From: Bacteroidales bacterium OttesenSCG-928-M11 | GTDB taxonomy: Bacteria > Bacteroidota > Bacteroidia > Bacteroidales > Azobacteroidaceae | Length of the DNA stretch: 34,483 nucleotides | NCBI GenBank assembly: GCA_030265685.1 | Contig: JAJDGO010000015.1 | Coordinates: 1-34,483 of the forward strand | Direction of reading: 5' to 3' | Shown: one piece after another, positions 4,235 to 18,004 of the stretch | Layout: each line of letters opens with the position of its first letter | How positions within the stretch are numbered: position 1 is the stretch's first letter | The notes under the pieces: model-generated | Seen by the model: only the letters and a program-made list of their open reading frames with translations | Databases searched by the model: none | Told to the model about the DNA's origin: nothing | Translations under genes and position numbers: made by a program

Positions 4235-4762
4235 ATGGAAAATATATCAGAAGCACGGATTTATGTAGGAACTTACGCTAAGTATAATGAAGGTTCAATT
4301 TTCGGTAAGTGGTTAGACCTTTCGGATTATTCCGATAAAGAAGAGTTTTACGAGGCTTGCCGCGAGTTACACAAAGACGAGGAAGACCCGGAATTAATGT
4401 TTCAGGACTGGGAATATATACCCTCCGGGTTGATAGGTGAAAGCTGGCTGTCCGATAACATATTTGAAATTATCGAAGCCATAGACGATATGGACGATGA
4501 TAAAAAAGCAGCATTCGAGGTCTGGCTGAACCACGAAAGCTACGATCTTAGTTCCAAAGATATAAACGACCTGATTTCCTCCTTCGAGGATGACTTTCAG
4601 GGTGCGTATAGAGATGAGGAAGATTATGCTTACGAAGTCGTTGAAGAATGCTACGACCTGCCGGAATTTGCGAAAACTTACTTTGACTATGAAAAGTTCG
4701 CCCGCGATTTGTTTATGACCGACTACTGGTTCGATGACGGTTATGTTTTCCGGCGTTCATAA
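4235..4762 (+). CDS. ardA: ArdA-like antirestriction protein
   Basis: This 175-residue protein is strongly acidic, with D and E far outnumbering K and R. It begins ARIYVGTYAKYNEGSIFGKWLDLSDY, which matches the ArdA family, whose members mimic B-form DNA and block type I restriction-modification enzymes. ArdA proteins are usually 165-180 residues, so it is full length. On conjugative elements it protects incoming DNA in the new host. It is alone on the plus strand between minus-strand genes, with GGTT four bases before the ATG, and it is closed by a terminator at 4785-4806. The family assignment is firm; activity against any particular enzyme is not shown. Confidence 0.88.
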   Translation: MENISEARIYVGTYAKYNEGSIFGKWLDLSDYSDKEEFYEACRELHKDEEDPELMFQDWEYIPSGLIGESWLSDNIFEIIEAIDDMDDDKKAAFEVWLNHESYDLSSKDINDLISSFEDDFQGAYRDEEDYAYEVVEECYDLPEFAKTYFDYEKFARDLFMTDYWFDDGYVFRRS

Positions 4763-15838: not shown

Positions 15839-16387
15839 CTAATATTTTAAATGATACTGTAATATTTTTTGATAATCAACTTTTAGCATACCTGAATTGT
15901 AAACATTAGTACCTGTTATTTTCCATTTTGATCCCTTATCTTGTCCGGGAAATAAGAGTATACCATTTCCTAAAATTAAAGGGACGTAGCAAATTTGCAT
16001 TTCATCAATTAAATCCGCAGCAAGCAACATTGAAACCAATTTGCCACCTCCGACCAACCAAATATCTTTCCCGTCCTGATTGCGAAGTTCAGAAATTGTT
16101 TCAATAATATTCTCTGTAATGAAACGTATATTTCCCTTTGCTTCCCATTCATGGTGGGAAACAACATAAGCCGTTTGCTCTGAATACGGCCAGATTACAT
16201 CCATATTCAGAATTTCACGGTAAGTCCGACCACCCATAATAACCGTGTCTACCGAAGCTGATAGTTCTTTGTAGCCGTAATCTGCCTTTTCGGGATTTGA
16301 GAATCCGGTAAGCCAGTCCAATTCACCGCCCGGTTCTGCAATGCGTTGGTCGAGTGATGCAGCAATGTAAAGAATAATCTTTTTCAT
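15839..16387 (-). CDS. Dihydrofolate reductase / RibD C-terminal family reductase
   Basis: 182 residues beginning KKIILYIAASLDQRIAEPGGELDWL. The family motifs are present: VIMGGRTYREIL (NADPH phosphate loop) and DIWLVGGGKLVSMLLAADLIDEMQICYVPLILGNGILLF. These proteins are NADPH-dependent reductases related to DHFR and RibD; many are not true folate reductases and the substrate here is unknown. The gene has an unusual upstream region: a promoter box at 16657-16664 followed by about 210 bases of strongly foldable RNA ending in a T8 tract, 54 bases before this ATG. That suggests either an attenuated leader or an independent small RNA. Trimethoprim resistance should not be assumed. Confidence 0.85.
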   Translation of the reverse strand: MKKIILYIAASLDQRIAEPGGELDWLTGFSNPEKADYGYKELSASVDTVIMGGRTYREILNMDVIWPYSEQTAYVVSHHEWEAKGNIRFITENIIETISELRNQDGKDIWLVGGGKLVSMLLAADLIDEMQICYVPLILGNGILLFPGQDKGSKWKITGTNVYNSGMLKVDYQKILQYHLKY

Positions 16388-16440
16388 GTTACTAATATTT
16401 ACGTATTATTAAGTCCTTAACTTAATTCGCTGTAACACGC

Positions 16441-16650
16441 AAAAAAAAGCGTGGAACTCACACAGTTCCAATGTAGAGGTACTGGTATACCCTTTGAAAG
16501 AAACAGGCAAGCCCACGCCATACTTTCGTATAGCATGAACATTGCGCTATTAGTCTCTTTCAAATGAAAATTACCAGTTTTCTACATTGAGACGTTCAGC
16601 GAACGTTATGTTATATCTAAACGGATTTAACCCGTTAAAATTCTATATTT
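16441..16650 (-). ncRNA. Highly structured leader or small RNA before the reductase gene
   Basis: On the minus strand, downstream of a TATCTTTG box, four groups of complementary segments nest: 16581-16589 with 16469-16477 (9 bp), 16572-16578 with 16481-16487 (7 bp), 16557-16564 with 16493-16500 (8 bp), and inside them a 7-bp hairpin with a GAAA tetraloop (16517-16534). Two hairpins precede them (16620-16636 and 16592-16606). The 3' part has hairpin GGAAC-loop-GTTCC (16453-16469), CACGC and T8 (16441-16448), a possible intrinsic terminator. CCACGC (minus strand, 16449-16454) can also pair with GCGTGG (16513-16518) or with GCGTG after the T8 (16436-16440). I do not recognise the family. 5' end is estimated from the promoter. 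Confidence 0.6.
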
Positions 16651-16656
16651 CTGATA

Positions 16657-16664
16657 CAAAGATA
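16657..16664 (-). promoter_or_regulatory. -7 box (TATCTTTG) of the structured RNA/reductase unit
   Basis: Exact TAnnTTTG on the minus strand; transcription should begin near 16650. The -33 region (TTTCT) is poor. Confidence 0.55.
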
Positions 16665-16927: not shown

Positions 16928-18004
16928 TTATAGCGCAAAAGATACAACTCTGTGTCTTGCTCGATATGTCGTTAAATCGATAGGTAATTCTAACTCTTTA
17001 CCAATCTCTTTTAAGTACTTATTGATTGTTCTAAGTATTTTACTTAACCTATTTGCTTTTTGAATTTCTGTCTGATGGAACGATGATAGAATAGGGAAGA
17101 GATAGATTTGATTTGGGTGCTCATACTTCTTTATGATGTTCATTGCTTCATTATGGATAGGTATCTTTATCAACTTCTTTGTTTTCTTCCTGTAATACAC
17201 AAGCCTATTGTCAATGATGTTGTTCTTTGTTAGATACGCTATATCTTTGAAGTTTATACCCGCACAAAGATAGGAGAAATAAAATAAATCAACAGATAGT
17301 CGTTTGTATTTACCCTCACATTTGTAAGTTATTATCTGTTCTATATCATTCTTTGTTATAGACCTTTTGGCTGTCTCCTCGTGTAACTTGGAAACTTTAT
17401 ATACCTTAAACGGATAGTCATCTTGTCTGACCATATTCTCATCAAGAGCCTTATTGTATAGTACTCTTAAAGTCCTAAATCTGACCCCAATCGAATTGAG
17501 TGATAGTCCCTTCAATTTAAGCCAAGCTTCATAACCTTTCAGCCATTGTACGTCAATATCTGAAAAATAAATATCCAAATCTTTACAGTAATCTATCATT
17601 GACGCTTTCAGTTCTTTGAATGTAGATGCATATTTTAATCTACCGTCTTTTTCTAACTGTTTGATTTGTTTATCAAATAGCTCATGAACCGTACATCTTA
17701 TAATATTATTCTTTGAACTCTTTAATAATTTGGAAGCTGTAAAATCTTTGCCAATGACTTTCATCTCCAATATCTGCGCAGAATATTCACTTACTTTGTC
17801 ATTGATAAATTTCTGTATCAACTCTTTATTGGGGCTATTTCTCTTTGGTCTGTTCTTCTCAAAATCCCAATGTTGTGGTAAAACGGAGATGCCAAGACTT
17901 TGATATTTTCTTTTGCCATCTTTGGAGATACAAATCATTAAAGGATGTTCTCCGTTTGAAAGTGTTTTTGATTTGTAACATAATATGTTAACTGTACAAC
18001 TCAT
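16928..18004 (-). CDS. Tyrosine integrase, C-terminally truncated
   Basis: 358 residues. An arm-binding domain (about 1-95) and core-binding SAM-like domain (about 105-205) precede the start of the catalytic domain. The frame stops at LTTYRARHRVVSFAL, just after the R-H box (R350, H351). The roughly 45-50 residues with the second His and the nucleophilic Tyr are absent, and neither other frame restores them. Position 248, where Arg I is expected, is Ala (YLCAGINFKD); some Bacteroidales integrases, including IntDOT, also lack Arg I. The gene is AT-rich like the chromosome to its right, unlike the GC-richer element to its left. It is probably inactive: either the element's own integrase has decayed or, more likely, an older tRNA-proximal integrase was cut by the incoming element. 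Confidence 0.85.
   Translation of the reverse strand: MSCTVNILCYKSKTLSNGEHPLMICISKDGKRKYQSLGISVLPQHWDFEKNRPKRNSPNKELIQKFINDKVSEYSAQILEMKVIGKDFTASKLLKSSKNNIIRCTVHELFDKQIKQLEKDGRLKYASTFKELKASMIDYCKDLDIYFSDIDVQWLKGYEAWLKLKGLSLNSIGVRFRTLRVLYNKALDENMVRQDDYPFKVYKVSKLHEETAKRSITKNDIEQIITYKCEGKYKRLSVDLFYFSYLCAGINFKDIAYLTKNNIIDNRLVYYRKKTKKLIKIPIHNEAMNIIKKYEHPNQIYLFPILSSFHQTEIQKANRLSKILRTINKYLKEIGKELELPIDLTTYRARHRVVSFAL

Follow-up and report, generated by a model that had tools for sequence, protein, structure and literature searches.

Upstream of a dihydrofolate-reductase-family gene of Bacteroidales bacterium OttesenSCG-928-M11 lies a segment that a preliminary description, made from the sequence alone, took to encode a highly folded RNA with competing pairing partners. 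It was held to be either an attenuator or riboswitch-like leader of that gene or a self-terminated small RNA. Here we asked what kind of RNA this is and whether it belongs to this one gene. The whole stretch of DNA analyzed (the window) comprises 34,483 nt (assembly GCA_030265685.1, contig JAJDGO010000015.1, positions 1–34,483). All elements of the RNA are on the minus strand of the window, and it measures approximately 200 nt from promoter to T-tract. Its parts are as follows, in 5′ to 3′ order of the RNA.

16657..16664 (−), promoter box TATCTTTG, of the TAnnTTTG type
16620..16636 (−), variable 5′ hairpin AACGG..CCGTT, between the promoter and the conserved RNA
16602..16607 (−), strand S0, AACGTT; alternative partner A0, AATGTT, at 16538–16543
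16592..16606 (−), hairpin P0, ACGTTC-GCT-GAACGT
16589..16593 (−), strand S1, GTCTC; possible partner S1′, GAGAC, at 16553–16557
16581..16589 (−), P1 5′ arm CAATGTAGA; pairs with 16469–16477 over 9 bp
16566..16582 (−), conserved segment GAAAACTGGTAATTTTC, comprising the P2 5′ arm with adjacent loop bases; left half of the candidate signal-binding core
16572–16578 and 16481–16487 (−), P2 arms ACTGGTA and TACCAGT, 7 bp
16553..16564 (−), P3 5′ arm TTTGAAAGAGAC, with S1′ GAGAC inside
16528..16545 (−), strand A GCAATGTTCATGCTATAC, 5′ side of hairpin P3b/P4; pairs with B in an antiterminator-like manner
16524..16527 (−), GAAA loop of P4, capping the hairpin GCTATAC/GTATGGC
16507..16523 (−), strand B GTATGGCGTGGGCTTGC, partner of A (P4) or of C (terminator-like helix); core GCGTGG at 16513–16518
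16493..16504 (−), P3 3′ arm GTTTCTTTCAAA; P3 has 12 bp
16476..16492 (−), conserved segment GGGTATACCAGTACCTC, comprising the P2 3′ arm with adjacent loop bases; right half of the candidate signal-binding core
16469..16477 (−), P1 3′ arm TCTACATTG
16449..16463 (−), strand C GTGTGAGTTCCACGC, adjoining the T-tract, partner of B; CCACGC at 16449–16454
16441..16448 (−), T8 tract, presumed intrinsic termination site
16436–16440 (−), GCGTG after the T8 tract
15839..16387 (−), downstream gene for a RibD C-terminal/dihydrofolate-reductase-family protein of 182 aa, ATG at 16387

The promoter, the GAAA-capped hairpin, the two upstream hairpins, CCACGC, GCGTGG, the T8 tract, and the GCGTG behind it were all present on the minus strand where the preliminary description had placed them. 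It had also named nested complementary segments of 9, 7, and 8 bp; the first two lengths were right, whereas the third arm has 12 bp. TAnnTTTG is the promoter consensus of Bacteroidota (PMC9723704). The minimum free energy of the window segment was −77.5 kcal/mol, against −45.1 (SD 4.2) for 200 dinucleotide shuffles (z = −7.76, no shuffle as low), and the RNA is indeed highly folded. The stretch of the 5′ hairpin (16620..16636) differs among close relatives and lies outside the covariance models used below. The downstream protein matched Pfam RibD_C at 65.7 bits, and all its matches in NCBIfam were far under the cut-offs. Its ATG lies 54 bases past the T-tract, and the spacer contains no TAnnTTTG box.

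Distribution and comparison with known RNA families

The source genome carries a second copy of the RNA with 82% DNA identity, a third on another contig (L056, contig C51, 3743–3919) followed by a TerB-domain gene, and a weak fourth match (G000:C60:2971-3173, E = 3.8e-5). In this genome, reductase genes follow the RNA twice, and the TerB-domain protein gene follows it on a third contig. Of 45 family genomes compared by DNA similarity, eight contained copies (own genome counted), as did four Bacteroidales plasmid records. As the preliminary description had proposed, we then relied on covariance models of homologues. A model made from nine DNA-similar copies (R1) was run against 393 genomes of the order and 395 sampled from the phylum. 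At E ≤ 0.01, 93 of the former had matches, a single genome having seven at most; at E = 0.001, 44 of the latter did (own genome counted in both). A second model (R2), made from 26 more distant members with no window-type sequence among them, recovered the window RNA with 105.9 bits (E = 2.2e-19) and gave matches at E = 0.001 in 57 of the 395 genomes of the phylum draw.

The exact pattern of the two conserved segments occurred in at least 119 stretches of named genomes. According to the record titles of the matches listed, 112 are from Bacteroidota, including unclassified Bacteroidetes metagenome-assembled genomes (MAGs), and seven from elsewhere. The 112 comprise Flavobacterium, Chryseobacterium, Mucilaginibacter, Pedobacter, Bacteroides, Parabacteroides, and others, all of which we take to be Bacteroidota. 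The seven others among the matches listed (L148, L153, L160, L206, L229, L234, and L255) are MAG contigs titled Lentisphaerae, Verrucomicrobia, Ignavibacteriae, or Pelotomaculum; these may be mis-binned or transferred. A phage collection gave no match to the RNA. The motif was present on eight IMG/VR contigs (L262–L269), three of which (L262, L263, and L268) were included in the alignment.

Scans with Rfam 15 at the gathering score (window; 13 and 18 further loci; window plus four) gave no match on the RNA, and permissive scans yielded sub-threshold matches only, none credible for the window. No T-box model of Rfam matched the same scanned members. To the extent of these Rfam 15 scans, the RNA indeed belongs to no known family: it represents a large leader family of Bacteroidota that is found in no RNA catalogue (Rfam 15, members scanned). 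Full-text searches of open-licence papers (main texts) turned up no description of it.

Among described RNAs, Flavo-1 and other Bacteroidota motifs are likewise structured RNAs of this phylum that were defined computationally, as presented in the part of PMC2864571 consulted. Identity with Flavo-1 (RF01705) was ruled out for the members scanned: Rfam models gave no match, and in one locus a separate Flavo-1 lies approximately 4.4 kb away. RteR of CTnDOT is likewise an RNA of Bacteroides conjugative elements. Compared by its description in the relevant part of PMC7366714, however, RteR is a trans-encoded small RNA of 90 nt, whereas the present RNA has approximately 200 nt and is followed by genes on its own strand. 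Of the 3161 candidate structured RNAs in a survey of the human microbiome, several from Bacteroidetes are terminator-like; among the candidates named in the text portion compared, as distinct from its tables, none fits the RNA (PMC8040213). A study of F. psychrophilum reports 64 structured 5′ regions, of which some extend to other species and lack Rfam hits (PMC9723704). As far as their texts go, either of these two sets could contain members of the family.

Conservation and covariation of the nested scaffold

Pairing was evaluated in alignment A8 (101 rows, 100 of them distinct, from 100 chosen sources rather than all loci). The nested helices P0, P1, P2, P3, P3b, and P4 were paired in 93.8% of cells, and 674 cells showed two-sided changes, figures that are biased towards this structure because A8 was fitted to it and some of its rows also built R2. 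None of 500 shuffles reached these values, and slid registers dropped to 28–48% paired. P1 was paired in 95.6% of cells with two-sided changes in six of seven modelled pairs, P2 in 99.7%, P3 in 90.2% with 36–61 two-sided changes in each of its five modelled pairs, and P4 in 94.4% with two-sided changes in eight of nine pairs. The corresponding values for P0, which the family aligns in a register slightly off the hairpin of the window, were 86.1% and four of four pairs. The loop sequence of P4 varies across the family. An alignment fitted to R1 (A5), in which P4 was badly placed in distant members, was excluded from the pair counts.

In total, 23 positions were conserved in at least 95% of the 101 rows; 10 of them lie within 16568–16581 and 10 within 16477–16491. 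A conserved structured core with covariation, as sought in a riboswitch, was found in A8. The bases around P2 are the most conserved of the family and, judged from the sequences, are probably where a metabolite or protein would act to tip the balance between the pairings described next.

Mutually exclusive pairings of strand B

Strand B, which can be used by A or by C, is also the 3′ strand of P4 and P3b. The preliminary description had put forward the pairing of CCACGC in C with GCGTGG in B, a pseudoknot, before any alignment was made, and the B:C core is absent from both covariance models. This pairing was conserved in 14 close relatives (82 of 82 cells paired, no covariation) and covaried in the wide set. 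In the latter, B:C alone was paired in 96.4% of cells. Two-sided changes occurred in six of six pairs, which was equalled by 3 of 500 shuffles, and in 35 cells, which was equalled by none. In a plain MAFFT alignment of 26 sequences made without structure, the 16 pairs of B:C were paired in 93.5% of cells, with no shuffle as high; two-sided changes were seen in only three of the 16 pairs, a number matched by 39 of 500 shuffles.

The idea of competing partners held insofar as the pairings are exclusive, but the competitor of C for B is the 5′ strand of the GAAA hairpin rather than the two partners proposed earlier. The first of these, the hairpin GGAAC/GTTCC, was paired in 76.5% of cells in the 14 relatives, with no two-sided change and no better than in shuffles; nor did these relatives support it as a local terminator hairpin. 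As for the second, GCGTG after the T-tract, a complement of strand C just behind the T-tract was seen in 13 of 100 members, compared with 4.9 in shuffles, and is a minority feature at best. A local hairpin GYGTG:CACGC was paired in 94.1% of cells in the 14 close relatives, without two-sided changes, and may help termination in them.

The A:B and B:C pairings were retained side by side. Of the 95 gap-free rows, 88 could form five or six of the six core pairs in each of the two helices. Among the 23 gap-free rows in which the core of B is not GCGTGG, at least five of six pairs were kept for A:B in 22, for B:C in 20, and for both in 20. Examples of such compensated triplets (A/B/C) are GCGTCC/GGACGC/GCGTCC in L092 and L212 and CTGTGC/GCATGG/CCATGC in L074; in L166, L188, and L205, B:C does not fit. 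Median duplex energies over the 101 rows were −18.1 kcal/mol for A:B and −18.1 kcal/mol for B:C, with B:C the stronger in 50 rows; the window has −19.4 and −17.2 kcal/mol, respectively. When strand partners were swapped among members, the own B:C partner did better than the average swap in 77 of 101 rows, 14 of them clearly, and, in a second set, in 94 of 115 rows (118 non-redundant rows minus three unparsed, with the antisense self-match L063 left out). This test is weak for B:C because most members have the same GCGTGG/CCACGC strands. Exclusive conserved pairings, one of them against the T-tract, are what an attenuator would be expected to have, and both were found here.

A third layer of pairing, S0:A0 and S1:S1′, likely exists beyond A:B and B:C, as judged from the alignment. 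S0:A0, in a register that was picked by scanning, showed two-sided changes in all six pairs, with 84–87% of cells paired (101 rows). For S1:S1′, the own partner did better than the average swap in 91 of 101 rows (in 16 clearly, at <5% of swaps), and exact compensations are visible by eye; the pairing is only moderately supported.

G-U cells far outnumbered A-C cells, both in the nested helices (324 versus 67) and in B:C (97 versus 8). This excess indicates that selection acts on the RNA of this strand.

Promoter, orientation, and T-tract

TAnnTTTG was present within 100 nt upstream in 79 of the 101 members (mean of 7.9 in shuffles) and within 100 nt downstream in none (5.5 in shuffles); on the opposite strand, it occurred seven times upstream and six times downstream. 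In 110 of 119 entries, the next gene shared the strand of the RNA, as expected of an attenuator, which stands 5′ of its gene on the same strand, whereas the upstream gene showed no bias (62 same, 54 opposite). Genes were called with a purpose-written ORF script. The 119 entries include seven loci twice (L057, L058, L063, L066, L067, L068, and L124), and L029/L058 was scored as opposite although a same-strand reductase frame overlapping the RNA comes next. For 49 rows from named genomes, the next gene was on the same strand in 41 and on the opposite strand in four, and four had no gene. Spacing between RNA and gene in the 110 same-strand entries was ≤100 nt in 67 and >200 nt in 32; in the latter, a promoter of the gene itself could lie farther off than the tested 100 nt. 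Many members have a modest T-tract: seven or more of the last 12 bases are T in 43 of 101 rows.

These data bear on the proposal that the RNA is a self-terminated small RNA, acting in trans, behind which a gene lies incidentally or is partly read through. It would have its own promoter and T-tract, and the next gene is distant in some members, such as L071 (374 nt) and L089 (719 nt), besides the other spacings above 200 nt. However, the next gene is almost always on the same strand, no promoter box occurs within 100 nt downstream, and exclusive pairings of equal strength would be needless for a stable product. We consider this explanation unlikely. An even less probable one, to which we give hardly any credence, is a recombination or attachment site acting as DNA, whose single strand folds. 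The element is multi-copy and found on integrative elements, and one cluster of 13 integrase-like entries is present among its upstream neighbors; however, such a site is contradicted by the G-U excess in the helices, by the orientation of promoter and T-tract, and by the prevalence of short same-strand spacings.

Proposed mechanism

Taken together, the sequence comparisons lead us to regard the RNA, with good though not full confidence, as a cis-acting transcription attenuator leader with a conserved aptamer-like core, in which termination, switching, and signal sensing would proceed as follows. RNA polymerase would start at TATCTTTG and make P0 and the scaffold, then B. The scaffold (P1, P2, and P3) and the conserved bases around P2 would be present in both states. 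With A:B closed as the long P3b/P4 hairpin, C would stay free, and transcription would read through into the gene. If C, which is made last, displaces A, the B:C helix would form directly at the T-tract, crossing the scaffold as a pseudoknot and acting as an intrinsic terminator, and transcription would end. Pairing of S0/S1 with A0/S1′ could pull A from B. Whatever binds the conserved core, metabolite or protein, would set the balance of A:B and B:C.

The strand order would be 1-2, 2-3, 3-4, as in the classical trp attenuator, with no leader peptide detected. In the trp leader of enterobacteria, ordered strands pair as 1-2, 2-3, or 3-4, and the last pairing lies next to a T-tract before the first gene. 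The present RNA shares the ordered exclusive strands and the final pairing beside a T-tract before a gene. It differs in its large conserved scaffold P1–P3, in a terminator helix that crosses this scaffold, and in that a crude test detected no conserved leader peptide. That a translating ribosome chooses between A:B and B:C, as this likeness in strand order and an ATG within strand A of the window and many relatives might suggest, is very improbable: this ATG is ACG in other members, and by the crude measure of ORF length, the longest ATG frame averaged 21.2 codons versus 19.0 in shuffles and was shorter than eight codons in 20 of 101 rows.

Transcription-terminating riboswitches are 5′ leaders with conserved core bases, in which exclusive pairings make or break a terminator-like helix. 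The attenuator leader proposed here has in common with them the position 5′ of genes, the conserved core, and covarying exclusive pairings that would make or break such a helix; unlike them, it precedes functionally mixed genes, has no Rfam match (members scanned), and offers a candidate ligand-binding core only.

Genes located downstream of the RNA

In the 119 entries, the largest clusters of downstream neighbors were reductase-like genes (35) and SusC-like genes (20; 18 as first gene and two as second). The one SusC-like gene tested matched the SusC/RagA model at 706 bits. We scanned 63 of the 75 non-reductase downstream proteins listed, omitting 12 repeats or short pieces. They included 17 with a TonB plug domain, five with a response-regulator domain, and three with sigma-70 regions, and most other families occurred once or twice. 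Genes behind the RNA include those for SusC/SusD transporters, sigma factors, and surface proteins. No regulon of a single metabolite was found among these 63 proteins and the RibD/DHFR-like group. The downstream genes have no obvious common pathway, which is unusual for a metabolite riboswitch; a global messenger is possible as the signal.

Homologues of the window reductase were found at 43 places in 36 of 198 genomes. Thirty of these loci were retrieved, of which L285, L300, and L310 were short of upstream DNA; among the 27 usable ones, the RNA preceded three (L283, L302, and L306). At least two of the 13 homologues outside the retrieved set have it as well (G000:C34 and G103:C19). A switch specific to DHFR or folate was ruled out as a general explanation, since most reductase homologues were seen without the RNA and many unrelated genes lie behind it. 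For the same reasons, the RNA seems to be a portable control module and not something that belongs to the biology of one gene. An attenuator or riboswitch-like leader, as suggested at the outset, is the best supported reading, but its tie to the reductase gene or to one element did not hold.

In two annotated plasmids, the RNA and a reductase gene are flanked by primase/helicase genes on one side and topoisomerase genes on the other, and annotated mob genes lie farther out; PLSDB types these plasmids as non-mobilizable. L064 has, in order, genes for a histidine kinase and a sigma-54-type response regulator, then the RNA, and then genes for a RibD_C-like protein (under the Pfam cut-off) and RteC.

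The conserved core of this same leader might be read by a protein, that is, an RNA-binding regulator or antitermination factor, instead of a small molecule. The unrelated downstream genes and the transfer and regulatory genes that neighbor it on mobile elements would suit a general regulator better than one metabolite; on the other hand, no single regulator gene was seen travelling with the RNA, the largest neighbor clusters being the reductase-like and SusC-like ones. We see this as a possible but not a probable reading. Equally tentative is the proposal that the attenuator leader constitutes a new riboswitch class across Bacteroidota that senses a general signal, whose pseudoknot terminator stem would be exchanged strand for strand with the tip of an aptamer hairpin, and which integrative elements and chromosomes would have placed repeatedly before unrelated genes.

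Less is known about regulatory RNAs in Bacteroidota than in model bacteria. A leader family this common, standing ahead of SusC/SusD uptake systems in flavobacteria as well as genes of gut mobile elements, would mean an entire further layer of regulation. Precise, testable predictions follow from the strand-exchange model, and the conserved core offers a concrete target for ligand or protein searches.

Several loci showed further features. In one genome with five copies, the RNA lies 54 nt before paralogous genes in L073, L110, and L112 (939, 968, and, partial, 271 aa); the two paralogues scanned have FGE-sulfatase and glycine-rich domains, and this is possibly an amplified surface-protein family. 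In one complete genome (L270 and L124), the RNA is followed by SusC, SusD, and a prolyl-oligopeptidase-family protein with similarity, under the cut-off, to lasso-peptide isopeptidases, and a MauE-domain protein is encoded on the other strand; perhaps the locus is a peptide uptake system. In flavobacterial loci (e.g., L119 and L136), a small divergent gene recurs approximately 90–170 nt upstream of the RNA; of the two scanned, that of L119 encodes a helix-turn-helix domain, and that of L136 gave no match. Directly upstream of the RNA module in the window lies a tyrosine integrase gene (16928–18004, minus strand). Its match to the integrase catalytic domain stops at profile position 136 of 172 with a score under the cut-off, and the integrase is probably truncated at its C-terminal end. 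The window also contains an ArdA antirestriction gene (4235–4759, plus strand), which is consistent with an integrative element.
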